Shown: in pieces, positions 48,983-60,072 of the stretch
How positions within the stretch are numbered: position 1 is the stretch's first letter
How the letters are laid out: each line of letters opens with the position of its first letter
Assembly: GCF_009834875.1 (NCBI RefSeq)
Contig: NZ_WVHT01000004.1
Span: 1 to 64,000 of the forward strand
Source: Hufsiella arboris
Lineage (GTDB): Bacteria > Bacteroidota > Bacteroidia > Sphingobacteriales > Sphingobacteriaceae
Direction of reading: 5' to 3'
Length of the DNA stretch: 64,000 bases
The notes under the pieces: generated by a model
What the model saw: the letters and a program-made list of their open reading frames with translations, nothing else
What the model was told of the DNA's origin: nothing
Databases searched by the model: none
Position numbers and translations under genes: made by a program

Positions 48983-50026
48983 TTATTTCCTTACTACTCT
49001 TCTGATCGCGTTGTTTTCGTAATCCGCTATATACATAACATCACCTTTTATAGAAATTCCATACGGATAATGAAATTGCGCATATTTTAAAAGTCCGTCG
49101 GTATATCCATTGCCATGCGGGCCAAGCATTCTTTGTTCACCGCCGGTTGTTTGAACAAAGCCTATCGTATTATTAGTATTGGTTACGAAAATATTTGTTT
49201 CCGGAGTTGGATTGAAGTAGTTGTCCTTTTTCGCAAGTGCAAAATCCAGGATTTGGACATCGTCCAGCGCTTTAAATACCGTGCTCACTCTGCCGTATTG
49301 ATTGATGCGGCGAATATAACGTCCAGGTTCGAATGCCCCTGAGTTCGGTCCAAAAGATCTGCCATCAACAAAATAAATAAAACCATCGCCACCGTATTTA
49401 ATACTTGTGGGATTGGTAAGCCTGACTGCGGCACCAATTCCATCCATTGTTCCCGGATATCCGTTACCCGCAATCACAGTTGAAGTTCCATCAGGTGTTA
49501 CTTTAATGATCCGATGGTGATAGGAATCGGTAATGTAAGCCGTACCGTCATCAAGAACTGCCATGTCGGTGGGCTGATACAATTCCTGGGATGTTTGGAT
49601 GGCAGGCAGTATTCGGCCGTCAGACGAAAATCTTGCTATACCTCTTGTGGCGTCTTTACACATAACGAAAACATCGCCATTCTTCCCCACTTTGATTCCG
49701 AAAGGATGGCCTGCCACTTTCGCAAACAGGCTGACGGTCGAGCCTTTAACCCGGTAAACTTCATTACTTTTGCTCGCGGTGGCGTACAGTGTTCCATCTT
49801 CTCCTGTGGCGACCCTGCTGATACCTTTATCTGAAACAAATTTGACAACCGTACTTACTACAAAAGAGTCTGACACGACAGAAGTTTTGTCGGTGTTTTT
49901 TGTTACCGCTAAAGTTGAACTATCCGCGGCAGACGAAAGAACATCGTCTTTCTTACAATTTGAAAAAGAAGCAACGAAAATAGCGGCGCTAGCTACAGCT
50001 ATTACTCTGAATATCTCACGTTTCAT
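48983..50026 (-). CDS. NHL-repeat lipoprotein 1
   Basis: A 347-residue protein with a signal peptide and a lipobox-like end (ASFSNCKKDD). NHL beta-propeller repeats are evident: GISRVATGEDGTLYATASKSNEVYRV, GIKVGKNGDVFVMC, PTDMAVLDDGTAYITDSYHHRIIKVTPDGT, and GISIKGDVMYIADYENNAIRRVVRK at the end. The residues after Cys (KKDD) resemble the Bacteroidota surface-export signal, so it may face outside. It is a distant paralogue of the genes at 58591 and 60073 and of the decayed copy at 53167. Confidence 0.82.
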   Translation of the reverse strand: MKREIFRVIAVASAAIFVASFSNCKKDDVLSSAADSSTLAVTKNTDKTSVVSDSFVVSTVVKFVSDKGISRVATGEDGTLYATASKSNEVYRVKGSTVSLFAKVAGHPFGIKVGKNGDVFVMCKDATRGIARFSSDGRILPAIQTSQELYQPTDMAVLDDGTAYITDSYHHRIIKVTPDGTSTVIAGNGYPGTMDGIGAAVRLTNPTSIKYGGDGFIYFVDGRSFGPNSGAFEPGRYIRRINQYGRVSTVFKALDDVQILDFALAKKDNYFNPTPETNIFVTNTNNTIGFVQTTGGEQRMLGPHGNGYTDGLLKYAQFHYPYGISIKGDVMYIADYENNAIRRVVRK

Positions 50027-53166: not shown

Positions 53167-53707
53167 CTACTGCCTGGATATTTTCCGGATAGCGTTATTC
53201 GAGATATCGGCAACAAATATGCCGCTTGGGTTCACCGTAAGACCGGTCGGTCCCCTGAAAGTGGCCTGTGCTGCTGCTCCGTTTTGAAATCCTTCGGTAA
53301 GCAACCCGGTAATGGGCGTCAAAACCTTATCGTACGACAAGTGCAGTATCTGGTACTTTCTTTGGGTCAGCGAAGAGGTGTCACTTACAGCTGAACGGGT
53401 AATTGATATAAAGGCGTTTTCGTGAGAAGTCAAATTGAAATCCTTGTCGCGCTTTGTTACGGCGACGTCGTTGATAGCCCAATTCAAAGAAGGATCCAAC
53501 TTAAGGAACGTGGTTACAGTTCCATCCATTTTTATATGTCGTATGGTTTGGCCGCCCAGGTTCGGAGTATTTCCCCCCGGAGTTGTTTTCACCGCCCCCA
53601 TTCCCATCCACAACCCACAATGTTCCGTCTTTGGCATAGCGTATATTACTGGGATAACTAAAACGTGCATTCCCGCCTTTACCATCAACTAATCCAATTT
53701 GACCGGT
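53167..53707 (-). pseudogene. truncated, frameshifted NHL-repeat protein remnant
   Basis: Only the C-terminal half of an NHL protein remains. One frame reads LVDGKGGNARFSYPSNIRY, LWVVDGNGGGENNSGG; then the sense continues in another frame as NTPNLGGQTIRHIKMDGTVTTF to the end VADISNNAIRKISRQ. The switch falls at a run of six G (plus-strand C at 53573-53578); five would keep one frame. The N-terminal part with signal peptide is missing; an in-frame stop lies at 53708-53710. It is a relative of the lipoprotein genes at 48983, 58591 and 60073. Confidence 0.75.
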
Positions 53708-53840
53708 TTAGTTAAGGCCATTATGAAAAAATGAAAAAATTTTGGAGAATTACAAAGTGGGATTAGAAATCCCTTCTATCGAATTATTCGACATGCCCTG
53801 CGGAACATGTCGAACAGCTGGATAGCTGGTTTTGTTCCCT

Positions 53841-54767
53841 TTATCGTAATGTTTCAATTATATATCGCTTCAAGCATTCTGGTGTCTTTGCATATTGGCT
53901 TAAACTTGAACACATAGTTGCATTTTCAATTCTCAAGTTACAAGAATATTTGTTTACAAAAGGTGAACAAGTAGTGCCAAAAATAGATTGCAGCCGACAT
54001 AAATAACTTTCAAGAAATCGTATTAAAAACTTACCTCTAAATTTTTCGGATTGATTAATGTATGCGAACTCTTGAGATTTTATATTCAAAGCATCGTCAG
54101 AAACACTTGGTGAATTGTTGTAAATGCTTTGTATTTCTTGTTTGGATGTTAATCCCTCTAAAGGTTTTATGCCAGTCAAGTCTGGCAATACAACTTTATC
54201 AAATTTTGCTTTTACCTTATTGTCAATATTTAATCTTGTTTTGGTTTTTAGGTCATTCCGTATATCTGACTGACAAGCTAACCAAGCATTGAATAGTAAC
54301 ATTTCAGATGTGAATTTTTGTTGAAGAGTTTTATAGTTCTCGATACATTTTACAAAGTCATCATCTGTTCTTTTCATTTTGAATTCTGCAAGAAGTATTT
54401 TTTCAAATGCCTCCTGGACACAGTAGAGATTTTCTATACTATAGGTGGGTGTTTTGTAAATAGTTTCAGGAAGATTATAATTGTCAAAATCACTGTCAAT
54501 AAAAAATCCTGTTTTTACATTTTTATAGTGAGGACTTTCTTTAATAAGGTTGTGAACTTTAATCACATCATCTTTTCCTCCACAAACAAAATCTACAACA
54601 GTCTTATATGATATGCTTTCTATCCGTATTGTGTAATAAATTGGATCTTCAAACCCTTCAAAAAAGCAATAAAGAGCATCCTCTGTTTTCTTGTATTGGA
54701 GCATAAATTCCGTATAAGCCACACAATCAGATGTCGCTTCTTCTCTCAGGCGTTCTACAATATCCAT
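53841..54767 (-). CDS. DUF4435 (TOPRIM-like) protein, PARIS AriB-like
   Basis: About 308 residues from the ATG at 54767; a TTG at 54776 is an alternative that would overlap the upstream stop. The DUF4435 pattern is visible: ALYCFFEGFEDPIYY with Glu37, VCGGKDDVIKVHNLI, GFFIDSDFDNY with Asp91, Asp93 and Asp95, and TYSIENLYC. These acidic residues match a TOPRIM nuclease core. Paired with an AAA/ABC ATPase gene directly upstream, this is the gene pair of PARIS anti-phage systems, in which AriB is the toxic nuclease released on activation. Visibly more AT-rich than the surrounding DNA. Confidence 0.75.
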   Translation of the reverse strand: MDIVERLREEATSDCVAYTEFMLQYKKTEDALYCFFEGFEDPIYYTIRIESISYKTVVDFVCGGKDDVIKVHNLIKESPHYKNVKTGFFIDSDFDNYNLPETIYKTPTYSIENLYCVQEAFEKILLAEFKMKRTDDDFVKCIENYKTLQQKFTSEMLLFNAWLACQSDIRNDLKTKTRLNIDNKVKAKFDKVVLPDLTGIKPLEGLTSKQEIQSIYNNSPSVSDDALNIKSQEFAYINQSEKFRGKFLIRFLESYLCRLQSIFGTTCSPFVNKYSCNLRIENATMCSSLSQYAKTPECLKRYIIETLR

Positions 54768-54772
54768 ATTAA

Positions 54773-56176
54773 TCAATCAATAAATATATTCATACCCACC
54801 GCATATTTGTCCAATTCATTTTTAAAGATGAAAGGTGAGTGTGTTACAGCTAACAAAAATTTACATTTTCCAGAACTTAAAATATCAGGAAGAAGAAGCT
54901 TTTGCCATTCAATGGAAAGTGATAATTCAGGTTCGTCAAATAGAACCGTTATGCTACTATGTTCTTCAAGATAGATTTTTGAAAACAAGGAAACTATTTG
55001 TTTTTCACCGGACGAAAGTTGGTTTAATTTGACCATTTGTCCAGATTTTTTTCTGATTATATCAATTGACACAGAACTTTCATCAAATTTCAATTCTTTT
55101 CCAACTAAATATTTGTTACAAACAGCCACAAAGTTTTTGATTCTGTTATCAAGTTCTTTTTGTGTTTCATATACGCCTATCAATTTTGATAAAAAGAAAA
55201 CTAAATCTTTTTTATCTGATAGTTTTTTTGACTCAACAATTCCAATAATATTCCTTCTGTCAGTTTCAGACAGATTCCCCCTTACTCTATTTAAAATTAT
55301 TTCAATGTCATCTTTGTTTAAATGTAATAATGATGATTCATCTACCGTAGGAAATCCTTTTAGCATTTGGGACAACACTTGACCTGTAACCGTGGTAAAA
55401 CCGGTCAGAGACATTTCGCTAATTTGAAATAACACACTTTTAATTCGGGTTTCTACGTCTTGCATCCCGAATTGTATTAATGTTTCTTCTTCTATGTTTG
55501 ATAACTCAATTCGTTCTTCTTCTTCAAATGGGTCTGAAAAATCAAAGTCGTCATTACTGATTTTTCTAAGTTGACCAAGATTTTGTAGTTCTTCTTCAAC
55601 CCGTCTATATGTTGGAAAGTACATTATAGTTGTGTCGAGTTGTTCCTCAATTATTTTATTTATGTCGTCAAAAACGAGTACAAATTCATCTGTTAATAAT
55701 CTGATTAAGCAATCAACAAGCACACCCGTTGGTGCTCCAATTTGTTGATTTATTCTGTTCTTTATGATATAATTAATAATATCCTGATGGTTGATTATAG
55801 TTTGCTGATTGACCGTATCAGGTTTCAATAACTCCTCTTTAAGCTTGTTTACATTAGGGATTAAGCTTTTAAGTTGAGAAATGATTTGGAGGTGTCCTCT
55901 TTTCCGTTGCCTTTTGTCATCCATTAAATAGGCTTCCAAATGTTTTTTTGAAAATCGTATTATTGAATTACTATCAAAAGTCAGCTCAATGCTTTCAAAT
56001 GGAATTTTTATGAGTTTATGCCATTTTTTTGTCAAGACATAATACAGAGAATTAAGAATTGTTGTTTTCCCAAGTCCATTTTCTCCTATAAGAATTTTAA
56101 TATTTTCATCAAACGGAATAACCACATTTTGAGTGTTAAAGAGTCCGTTTATTGCATATTTTTTTATATTACTCAT
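54773..56176 (-). CDS. AAA/ABC-type ATPase, PARIS AriA-like
   Basis: A 467-residue ATPase of the AAA_15/AAA_21 (SMC/OLD-like) type. Walker A is GENGLGKT at residues 31-38, then a long helical insert, the ABC signature LSSGEKQIVSLFSKIY, Walker B ITVLFDEPELSLSIEWQ and the H-loop VTHSPFIFKNE. In PARIS, AriA forms an ATPase scaffold that holds AriB and senses phage anti-restriction proteins. It is the first gene of the pair, 5 bp from the DUF4435 gene. Defence ATPases of other systems (Septu, Gabija-type) look alike, but the DUF4435 partner points to PARIS. Confidence 0.78.
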   Translation of the reverse strand: MSNIKKYAINGLFNTQNVVIPFDENIKILIGENGLGKTTILNSLYYVLTKKWHKLIKIPFESIELTFDSNSIIRFSKKHLEAYLMDDKRQRKRGHLQIISQLKSLIPNVNKLKEELLKPDTVNQQTIINHQDIINYIIKNRINQQIGAPTGVLVDCLIRLLTDEFVLVFDDINKIIEEQLDTTIMYFPTYRRVEEELQNLGQLRKISNDDFDFSDPFEEEERIELSNIEEETLIQFGMQDVETRIKSVLFQISEMSLTGFTTVTGQVLSQMLKGFPTVDESSLLHLNKDDIEIILNRVRGNLSETDRRNIIGIVESKKLSDKKDLVFFLSKLIGVYETQKELDNRIKNFVAVCNKYLVGKELKFDESSVSIDIIRKKSGQMVKLNQLSSGEKQIVSLFSKIYLEEHSSITVLFDEPELSLSIEWQKLLLPDILSSGKCKFLLAVTHSPFIFKNELDKYAVGMNIFID

Positions 56177-56179
56177 TTT

Positions 56180-56620
56180 TGCTATTTCCTTTCGTTATTT
56201 GTTTTCTCGTTCATTAATGTTGCTGCCAACCCGTTTGTAAGGATGATTTTCCTTCTTTCTTTCGGCTAAGATAATTTATTTTCAATCCCTTTAACCGAAC
56301 AATAATTTACCAGTATTCTTATCCACTAAAAAGGCCGTCCGCATCCCCGCAAATAGTCTTTAAAATTTATAATTGCGTCCAGGTCTTATGCGCCCGCTTT
56401 CAACTCAACCACTTCCTCGCCGGCCTTTCTTCCTCCACGATCCGTAATTTTCCTTGCCTGGCGGTAGCTTTCAAAAACTCTTCGTCGGTAAAAAAGCCGT
56501 TCAACAAATCATCGAACAAACTGAATACTCTTTCTTTAATTCGGGATTTTATATTTTGAAAAATTTACAATACTAAATACACAGTGAACAATCTGCACGC
56601 CTAAATACCTCCTCTAACCC
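56180..56620. other. intergenic region with decayed coding remnants
   Basis: About 440 bp between the ATPase gene and the MFS gene. On the minus strand, around 56400-56560, one frame reads without ATG as RIKERVFSLFDDLLNGFF, then TDEEFLKATARQGKLRIVEE and so on to a stop, and a second frame ends EEVVELKAGA. These look like pieces of a former protein gene that I cannot identify. The rest is AT-rich and featureless. Confidence 0.45.
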
Positions 56621-56628
56621 TATCTTTG
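56621..56628 (+). promoter_or_regulatory. -7 box for the MFS transporter gene
   Basis: TATCTTTG, ending 7 nt before the ATG at 56636. Confidence 0.6.
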
Positions 56629-56635
56629 CTTTCCC

Positions 56636-57841
56636 ATGTTTACCTCAACCATTCAATTATACAAAACAGCCTATACCGGCCTTTCCAAAAACAGCTGGTA
56701 TCTCAGCATTGTCATGCTGATCAACCGCAGCGGCACGATGGTGATACCATTCATGACCATCTATTGCACGCAGCAGCTTCATTATACAATTACACAAGCG
56801 GGAACAATTATGGCGTTGTTTGGCCTGGGGTCGATTGCAGGAGCATTCATCGGCGGCAAGATCACGGATAAGCTTGGCTTTTACCAGCTGCAGGTCGGCG
56901 CGCTCATGAGCGGCGGCATTATGTTTATCGTGATCGGTTTACTCACACATTTCATTGCGTTATGTATCGGGACATTCGTTTTAAGTATCTGTAACGAATC
57001 ATTCCGGCCGGCTAATTCCACCGCCATCGCGCACTACAGCACACCCGAAAATCAAACACGTTCCTATGCTTTGAACAGGCTGGCGATTAACCTGGGCTGG
57101 TCGTTCGGCGGAGCGCTTGGTGGTTTCCTGGCGTCCTTTAATTATCATTTGCTGTTTTGGGTAGACGGCTGCACAAATATCTTCGCGGCTTTCCTTCTTC
57201 TTTGGCTATTGCCTTACAAATCGATTGTTGCCGAAAAAAAATCAAAGAATACGCAGGACGGAACGTCTCCGTACCGCGACCGGATTTACCTGGCTTTTAT
57301 CGGACTGGTAATATTATTCGCTTCCTGCTTTTTTCAATTATTTACCATGGAACCGGTTTTCTTTAAAACGCAGTGGGGTTTTAACGAACGATTAATAGGA
57401 ATGCTGATGGCCTTGAACGGGATAATAATCGCATTCTTTGAGATGATCATCATACACAAGATCGATGGCAAAAAGCACCCGCTATTTTATATCGTTATGG
57501 GGACGCTTATATCAGGGGGCGCTTATATCCTACTTAACCTGCTTCCCGTTCTGCCCGTTTCGGGCGTCATTGTGGTAACGATGATCACCATTGGCGAAAT
57601 CCTGTGTTTGCCTTTTATGAATTCCTTCTGGATCTCCCGCAGTAATGCACAGAACCGGGGCGCTTACGCGGCATTGTATACCATGGCATGGTCGACAGCA
57701 CAAATACTGGCGCCAACCCTGGGCAGCCAGGTAATTTACCTTAAAGGGTTCGGCTTATTGTGGACTATCATGGCAGTAGTATGCCTGCTGTCTGGCGGCG
57801 GGTTTTATATGTTGTATAAGACGGTGAAAGTTAGAGCATAA
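56636..57841 (+). CDS. MFS transporter (DHA1-like)
   Basis: A 401-residue protein with about 12 membrane segments and the MFS loop motif GGKITDKLGFYQLQ (G-x-x-x-D-x-x-G) between segments 2 and 3. WYLSIVMLINRSGTMVIPFMTIY opens it and QTRSYALNRLAINLGWSFGGALGG is segment 5 with the antiporter-type glycine motif. It belongs to the MDR-type exporters common in Bacteroidota. The substrate is unknown. Transcribed alone from its own -7 box. Confidence 0.88.
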   Translation: MFTSTIQLYKTAYTGLSKNSWYLSIVMLINRSGTMVIPFMTIYCTQQLHYTITQAGTIMALFGLGSIAGAFIGGKITDKLGFYQLQVGALMSGGIMFIVIGLLTHFIALCIGTFVLSICNESFRPANSTAIAHYSTPENQTRSYALNRLAINLGWSFGGALGGFLASFNYHLLFWVDGCTNIFAAFLLLWLLPYKSIVAEKKSKNTQDGTSPYRDRIYLAFIGLVILFASCFFQLFTMEPVFFKTQWGFNERLIGMLMALNGIIIAFFEMIIIHKIDGKKHPLFYIVMGTLISGGAYILLNLLPVLPVSGVIVVTMITIGEILCLPFMNSFWISRSNAQNRGAYAALYTMAWSTAQILAPTLGSQVIYLKGFGLLWTIMAVVCLLSGGGFYMLYKTVKVRA

Positions 57842-57935
57842 ATTTACCGGGTGAGTAACAAGCAATAAGTAACTTTTTTTAATGTATGTTACGAATTCTT
57901 ATAATTAGAAAATTAACGTTTCGGCTACTATGAAA

Positions 57936-58010
57936 CGATAGTCCTGCTTTACGTTCATACTGCACAGGCATTAGCCGCCAGGCCGGTATACACTTCAATC
58001 AGGTTTAAAA
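57936..58010 (-). repeat. dispersed repeat R1 (inverted, divergent core)
   Basis: On the minus strand it starts TTTTAAACCTGAT and ends AGCAGGACTATCG, the same ends as R2, R4 and R5, but the sequence between differs. Confidence 0.5.
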
Positions 58011-58590: not shown

Positions 58591-59652
58591 TCAATTCGAA
58601 TGCAGCCTCAAAATAACCTTCCGCACCGCATTCGCATTCAAATCGGTGAAGTAGAGAGTATTCTCATCTTTCGATAAGGCTAAAGAATAAGCATATACAT
58701 CAGCGTTAGTGCCAACCCCATCTCTAGAGTCGTGGTGTTTTGGATTTGGCCCTGTTATATACTGAAGTTTTCCGTTTACGATGACTTTAATGGCTCCATT
58801 ATCAACTATATAAATGGATCGGGAGTCGTGATTTGCAACGATAGACGTAACATTTTTAAACTTTAAATCGGTATAAATGTGAGATGGGGTACCATCACGC
58901 AATATTTTAAACATGTCGCCTTTAAGCGATTCCGGATCACTTAATATCATGTAAATTATATTGTTAAATCCGAAAAAGAACCCTCTTGGCGTATAATACG
59001 GGCTATCGAAACGTCCATCATAGTCAGAAGGTAGATGATAAGTCAATTTGTTAAAATCAATCCCATAACCCTGATAATACGATCCAACTCTGTGAATAAA
59101 TGGCGGGCCAAAATCGGTTCCTTCATAAAAGCTTTTCGTGAAAGGATCCCAAGCTAAACCTAGAAGGGATGAACGTATAAGATCATGATAATCAAATAAA
59201 CCGTCCGGTTTAAAAACGGATACCCGGCCTCCGCCGTCATATTTATCGACTACCGCTAAACTGCCATCATCATACAACCCAACCGCATTGGGTTCGCTGA
59301 AATGGGCTGCTGTTATAGCGGGGTTCACCAGAGTAGTAACTGTTCCATCTGTGGTTACTTTTCGAATAGCATTATTTTTAGAATCTGCAACGTAAAGATT
59401 CCCGGTATTGGCTAAATAAATTCCTAGCGGTGCTTTGAATCTGGCATCCTTGCCGGTTCCATCTACCAATGTGGGACCAGTAGAATCTCTCATTCCTGCG
59501 ATGGTTTTTACAATAAGAATGGTATTACCCGCTGAAACTGATAATTGATCTTTAGCAGTGCTAATTACTGTCTGATCAGAAACAGAAATGTCTTTTTTGC
59601 AGCTGCTAATTACGACACCGATAAGAACAGCAATTAATAAATTCTTTTTCAT
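58591..59652 (-). CDS. NHL-repeat lipoprotein 2
   Basis: About 353 residues from MKKNLLIAVLIGVVISSC, with lipobox ISSC and KKD after the cysteine, which resembles a surface-export signal. NHL repeats follow: DGTGKDARFKAPLGIYLANTGNLYVADSKNNAIRKVTTDGTVTTL, EPNAVGLYDDGSLAVVDKY, and a final repeat ending NENTLYFTDLNANAVRKVIL-like. Its closest relative is the next gene at 60073; the two sit in a tandem duplication that includes their upstream regions. An extracellular binding role is possible but unproven. Confidence 0.82.
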   Translation of the reverse strand: MKKNLLIAVLIGVVISSCKKDISVSDQTVISTAKDQLSVSAGNTILIVKTIAGMRDSTGPTLVDGTGKDARFKAPLGIYLANTGNLYVADSKNNAIRKVTTDGTVTTLVNPAITAAHFSEPNAVGLYDDGSLAVVDKYDGGGRVSVFKPDGLFDYHDLIRSSLLGLAWDPFTKSFYEGTDFGPPFIHRVGSYYQGYGIDFNKLTYHLPSDYDGRFDSPYYTPRGFFFGFNNIIYMILSDPESLKGDMFKILRDGTPSHIYTDLKFKNVTSIVANHDSRSIYIVDNGAIKVIVNGKLQYITGPNPKHHDSRDGVGTNADVYAYSLALSKDENTLYFTDLNANAVRKVILRLHSN

Positions 59653-60072
59653 AGTTACCAATGTTTAACATAAAGTTACAGTTGGTAACAGATTCACTAT
59701 ACACTTTTCAATTATCGTGAAAATTATGTGCAGTTTTCAGAAGAACTGAGAAAGCTGCTTGTTGCGGTAAAGATTCCCGATCAACCGGGAGCTGCTGCGG
59801 CACCAGTGTTTATTACATAATGGTTTGTCTTTCTACGATCATCTGTTAGCTTACAAACCCGTTTTGTAACGTTGGTTTTCAATGCACAGAGCTTTCATTT
59901 TAAACCTGATGGAAACGGCAGCCCCGAGGTACGAGGGCTACAGTGGACAGCAGGACTATCGGCCGATAGCTCCGCAATGTCCATTTTCAAAAGATAGCCT
60001 TGTAATTACTTCAACGCGTTAAATTCAAGATTAAACCCAAAGCTGATTGTTCGTCATACAATCGTTACCCGG
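59653..60072. other. intergenic region: NHL promoter, shared upstream block and repeat R4
   Basis: From the NHL start outward: a minus-strand TAACTTTA box (59678-59671), overlapped by an inverted repeat GTTAC-N5-GTAAC (59675-59689); the hairpin TCCCG/CGGGA (59774-59789); the block shared with 61249-61393; repeat R4 (59894-59970); then about 100 bp without features. Confidence 0.55.
59894..59970 (+). repeat. dispersed repeat R4
   Basis: Full copy from TTCATTTTAAACCTGATGG to the 14-bp palindrome CTATCGGCCGATAG. AGCCC/GGGCT arms form a second hairpin inside. Nearly identical to R5. Confidence 0.85.

Follow-up and report, generated by a model that had tools for sequence, protein, structure and literature searches.

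Positions 53841-56176 of the 64,000-nucleotide stretch of Hufsiella arboris DNA analysed here (contig NZ_WVHT01000004.1; hereafter, the window) very probably hold a complete PARIS system of two genes that arrived by horizontal transfer and that acts as its counterparts in Escherichia coli do. The gene pair has a conserved partnership, belongs to PARIS by both profile and fold, retains intact catalytic residues, and is of foreign base composition. The locus itself is an ordinary acquired defence cassette, a further member of PARIS, but the mechanism of these systems is known from few E. coli examples, and the intact pair described here comes from a distant and widespread branch.

Both genes are encoded on the minus strand, with ariB directly behind ariA. 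The first, ariA (54773..56176), specifies a 467-amino-acid ABC-type (AAA_15/AAA_21) ATPase, the predicted sensor holding AriB inactive, and the second, ariB (53841..54767), a 308-amino-acid DUF4435/Toprim protein, the predicted tRNA nuclease effector; PADLOC, Pfam, and fold comparisons contribute to both assignments, as do a family profile for AriA and invariant residues for AriB. As the initial annotation described them, the genes are adjacent, on the same strand, and nearly overlapping: they are 5 bp apart if ariB begins at the ATG at 54767 (308 amino acids) and overlap by 4 bp if it begins at the alternative TTG at 54776 (311 amino acids). Alignment with relatives favours the ATG, from which we number the residues of AriB. 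The two frames are fully open across 2.3 kb, and neither protein has lost any of the residues that are invariant in its family. Immediately beyond the stop codon of ariB is an imperfect 20-nt inverted repeat (53776..53825, minus strand) with a perfect 9-bp hairpin core, TTCGACATG-N10-CATGTCGAA at 53787-53814, that is single-copy in the genome; this repeat possibly marks the end of the transcript.

The suggestion that these genes form a PARIS-like module is borne out by the search with AriA and AriB profiles in PADLOC, in which each protein has its own PARIS family as its best match. For the ATPase, the AriA profile matches at 5.4e-31 and the best PtuA profile at only 5.5e-16 (15 orders of magnitude weaker), and the sole PADLOC match of the DUF4435 protein is AriB (4.8e-28). 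The pair from an E. coli P2-like phage scores comparably (AriA, 5.7e-40; AriB, 2.3e-24), and P2-like phage hotspots are known to carry such systems (PMC9122126). Pfam scores of the ATPase (48.2 bits for AAA_21 and 42.7 bits for AAA_15) and of AriB (119.1 bits for DUF4435) all lie above the cut-offs of the PARIS detection rule of Rousset et al., which calls for AAA_15 of at least 32 bits or AAA_21 of at least 27 bits, plus DUF4435 of at least 27 bits (PMC9122126). Likewise, a profile built from nine AriAs aligns with E. coli AriA over nearly its whole length at 9e-40, versus 2e-19 for PtuA. Sequence searches that started from the window AriB, from its five-member profile, or from two other AriBs did not lead to E. 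coli AriB, and a comparison of folds was therefore needed.

AlphaFold2 models built from alignments of the relatives of the window proteins are confident (pLDDT of 93.8 and 87.3 for the two models), and both resemble PARIS components more than any other structure. The first 15 Foldseek matches of the AriA model are all E. coli AriA chains, and the only two PDB matches of the AriB model at E < 0.001 are both E. coli AriB, at rank 1. Superposition of AriA on chain 8ux9_B yields a VIA Z score of 21.8 (rmsd of 5.0 over 354 aligned residues), with PtuA next (Z of 16.4), and that of AriB on 8ux9_A a VIA Z score of 14.1 (rmsd of 4.8 over 247 aligned residues), with the Toprim domains of OLD proteins next (Z of 8.1). 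Counting against the assignment, the window AriB shares only 13% identity with its E. coli counterpart when the two structures are aligned, and the sequence searches above do not link them.

The active sites appear intact. All four ABC-type ATPase motifs that had been reported for AriA are present (Walker A GENGLGKT, signature LSSGEKQ, Walker B FDEPELSLS, and THSPF), and in 57 sequences their key residues vary little or not at all. For AriB, the acidic residues Glu37 and Asp91/93/95 had been singled out along with the YSIENLY stretch, and most of this proposal holds: E37, D91, D93, and E112 (the glutamate within YSIENLY) are invariant across 59 AriBs, as are R244, G245, and K246. The exception is position 95, which is an aspartate in just 33 of the 59 and, judging from this alignment, is probably not catalytic. 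The first three of these residues match the Toprim E...DxD pattern and are situated at the ends of model strands 1 and 3, and from its placement after strand 1, E37 would be the equivalent of E26, a catalytic residue of the E. coli protein. We could map no certain counterpart of the lysine pair (K60 and K64) with which E. coli AriB grips tRNA, which counts against an E. coli-like mode of action; within the branch, K or R is found without exception at position 65, but K70 is not conserved.

To gather relatives, we took AriA as bait, since searches for related loci with AriB alone, or with a diverse AriB alignment, gave nothing usable. Among the 81 AriA loci obtained, which come from genomes of bacteria and a single viral contig, AriB accompanies AriA in 78 and in almost every case follows it by no more than about 20 bp; the remaining three have either broken AriB pieces (L123) or short open reading frames in which AriB is not recognised (L122 and L135). 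The fragments in L123 (Desulfobacterales; 1062-1473) are beside AriA, and an Anabaena locus (L072; 7347-7889) has an internally deleted AriB; in both, the sensor has possibly been kept and the effector lost. Other arrangements occur: a Paraburkholderia sabiae plasmid (L147; 5433-8264) carries AriA followed by two consecutive DUF4435 genes, the second encoding about 573 amino acids, and in Leptolyngbya (L128; 8671-12143) a type I methyltransferase-like gene sits close behind ariAB, joining PARIS to a restriction locus. Fusobacterium phage FNU3 (L148; 2962-3738) encodes a short ATPase resembling AriA (about 40% identity along a portion of AriA) with no DUF4435 partner annotated, which one might speculate to be a decoy or a counter-defence protein.

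The distribution of the pair is sporadic. A direct AriB protein search detects it in 5 of the 395 genomes of the phylum, 21 of which contain any DUF4435 protein, and the AriB profile matches 8 of 201 genomes in the family; PARIS as a whole is present in 5.2% of genomes (PMC9122126). A search of one genome of the same genus gave no match to AriAB, and relatives of AriB are absent from the phage collection and only distant on plasmids. In the trees of both proteins, the closest relatives are those of Chryseobacterium sp. legu1 (L062), followed by L063, L064, and L065 (GWA2_31_9b, MM_PW_MetaG, and UBA4036), with identities to the window proteins of 46-48% for AriA and 37-40% for AriB. One of these loci belongs to a Campylobacterota genome, and its presence among the same relatives in both trees indicates that ariA and ariB travel together between phyla.

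The composition of the locus is consistent with this history. The interval 53841-56176 has a GC content of 0.310, compared to a mean of 0.418 (standard deviation, 0.028) for segments of the same size, and is the lowest when set against 553 non-overlapping segments, and the GC3 of the pair is 0.25, versus 0.55-0.58 in the flanking mutS and MFS genes; the pair is thus considerably more AT-rich than its surroundings (31% versus 42% GC), as had been claimed. The initial annotation also placed decayed DNA on both sides of the pair, which is confirmed for the left side only. There, at the edge of the AT-rich island, we detected by tblastn with intact paralogues the frameshifted C-terminal part of an NHL-repeat gene (53167..53710, minus strand; upper boundary taken from the alignment), whereas the right flank (56177-56640) contains no NHL paralogue, no Pfam match, and no recognisable coding remnant up to the MFS gene. 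The broken copy is located between two intact members of a small local NHL-repeat gene family (48983-50026 and 58591-59661).

That the island is transferred defence DNA, again as first proposed, agrees with its foreign GC content, its absence from the same-genus genome, and its relatives in other phyla. Because the mutS locus of the same-genus genome is rearranged, no empty site can be demonstrated. The edges of the island have no direct or inverted repeats in common, none of the neighbouring open reading frames listed was recognised as an integrase or transposase, and Rfam gave no match, so we propose no mechanism of insertion. Farther along the window, at 57926-58010, is a dispersed repeat of approximately 85 bp that exists in many copies (about 70-94% identity, partial lengths) both here and in the same-genus genome and has neither an Rfam match nor an inverted repeat. 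The host carries several N6-methyltransferase genes of the type I restriction family, four of them strong matches to N6_Mtase, and an anti-anti-restriction system would make sense in such surroundings.

How the pair works, from ring assembly through trigger sensing and AriB release to tRNA cleavage, we infer from E. coli. By analogy, AriA would assemble into a multimeric ABC-ATPase ring (a hexamer in E. coli) that binds AriB and holds its Toprim nuclease in check until a phage protein binds AriA, upon which AriB would be released. An example of such a trigger in E. coli is Ocr, a DNA-mimicking anti-restriction protein (PMC11455837; PMC12409363). Once freed, AriB would dimerise and nick the anticodon stem of a few tRNA species, between positions 40 and 41, such that translation and growth would stop and the phage could not spread. 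Both the trigger and the set of tRNAs may differ from those in E. coli, because the window pair sits in a branch distant from the systems studied there.

The potential targets can be considered in light of the host tRNAs. E. coli AriB cuts between positions 40 and 41 (PMC11455837; PMC12409363), preferring the site U36AAUC|A41, and its main targets are tRNA-Lys(UUU) and tRNA-Thr(UGU) (PMC12409363). In a survey of host tRNAs that read 30 of 43 places and yielded 31 distinct genes (such that further isoacceptors may be missing), the UAAUC|A site is found in Thr(UGU), Asn(GUU), and Lys(CUU). Host tRNA-Lys(UUU) reads UAAUGU and is without the site, which counts against a target set identical to that of E. 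coli, and an E. coli-like Lys(UUU) anticodon stem-loop, when sought in the host, was not present in a tRNA. If specificity is conserved, which is itself uncertain at 13% identity, the target set would shift.

The branch to which the window AriA belongs holds 80-odd systems from Bacteroidota, Cyanobacteriota, Bacillota, Pseudomonadota, and others, and a quick tree separates it from the PARIS of E. coli, a P2 phage, and a Klebsiella plasmid (SH-aLRT of 99), although its members were gathered because they resemble the window AriA and the outside references are on long branches, making their exact placement unsure. The tree and a distinctive motif together suggest that the branch is separate. Beyond the ATPase motifs, T189, R191, R192, E194, G237, D240, K360, and C438 are invariant in 57 AriAs. 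The first four are within PTYRRVE (residues 188-194; 55595..55615, minus strand, with codon positions computed from the start of the open reading frame), which is outside the ATPase core, and G237 and D240, likewise outside the core, are within FGMQDV (residues 236-241; 55454..55471, minus strand), where a long helix begins. These two motifs flank an acidic loop (residues ~196-234; 55475..55591, minus strand) that has a net charge of -10 and is poorly predicted (block-mean pLDDT of ~51-70). E. coli AriA aligns SFYNRKA and LGIAAY to the two motifs, which thus occupy a comparable place in the protein with different residues; in the form searched, the motifs are absent from eight outside reference AriAs, including that of E. 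coli. The literature searched contains no functional study of this branch, which is presumably already inside earlier surveys of DUF4435/AAA systems.

These features bring into consideration a working PARIS-like system that has drifted and follows PARIS in its general scheme though not in its particulars, its AriA sensing a trigger that is not an Ocr-like DNA mimic and its AriB cutting other tRNAs, an explanation that refines and overlaps the one that we prefer and that we regard as quite possible but less well favoured. The separate branch with its own TYRR-x-E and G237/D240, the acidic loop between the two motifs, and the host Lys(UUU), whose site departs from the UAAUC|A still found in Thr(UGU), Asn(GUU), and Lys(CUU), all point in this direction. 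However, divergence in sequence alone is no proof of altered specificity, the E. coli system itself responds to structurally dissimilar triggers (PMC11455837), and the long branches leave the placement of the references unsure. More tentatively still, the entire branch might constitute a distinct subtype of PARIS in which the invariant residues and acidic loop sense a phage protein that is not Ocr-like and AriB attacks a different set of tRNAs; if so, AriB in this host would perhaps spare Lys(UUU) and cut Lys(CUU), Thr(UGU), and Asn(GUU) instead. The invariant residues outside the core, along with the predicted sites in host tRNAs, offer a way of asking whether the PARIS family as a whole senses triggers and selects tRNAs alike.

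It is improbable that the island is the remnant of a dead PARIS system that has lost expression or function: its left neighbour is a pseudogene, and loss does occur among relatives (three of the 81 have no recognisable intact AriB, and that of L072 is internally deleted), but the open frames and full complement of invariant residues argue against decay of the pair itself. We can all but dismiss a different defence system in which a Septu/retron-type (PtuA) or OLD-type ATPase happens to lie beside a DUF4435 gene, since PtuA, despite its own profile match (5.5e-16) and standing as the next fold family (Z of 16.4), trails AriA by 15 orders of magnitude in profile and about 5 Z units in fold, and the partner is a DUF4435/AriB protein in 78 of the 81 relatives; the initial annotation had held that an ATPase closer to another family with a non-DUF4435 partner would tell against PARIS, and the reverse was found. 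Septu (PtuAB) in particular was rejected: PtuA is not the best profile match, and the partner matches AriB alone and is not the HNH protein PtuB.

Compared with known systems, the PARIS of the window resembles that of E. coli (PDB accession numbers 8ux9 and 8v45-8v49) in organisation, with two genes, ABC ATPase and Toprim/DUF4435 folds, conserved acidic residues, and proteins of similar size (AriA of 464 amino acids versus 467 here; AriB of about 306 versus 308 here). It differs in sequence (identities of about 19% for AriA and 13% for AriB in structural alignments), in possessing TYRR-x-E and G237/D240, in its Bacteroidia host, and in that the preferred E. coli cleavage site is missing from host tRNA-Lys(UUU). 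The pairs in the Escherichia P2-like phage vB_EcoM-813R9 (L145) and on the Klebsiella plasmid (L146, an AAA/DUF4435 pair) similarly consist of an adjacent AAA ATPase and AriB-profile protein that match the same PADLOC models, but both fall outside the AriA and AriB branch of the window pair and are without the branch motif. Septu/retron PtuA and the OLD/Gabija proteins share a related ABC ATPase core, and OLD and GajA also join an ATPase with a Toprim nuclease, but their profile and fold matches are weaker; the partner of PtuA is the HNH protein PtuB, and in OLD and GajA the two activities are fused in one protein. The four closest pairs (L062-L065) have the same cassette and the same motifs as the window pair and differ in their hosts, as expected for horizontal spread.
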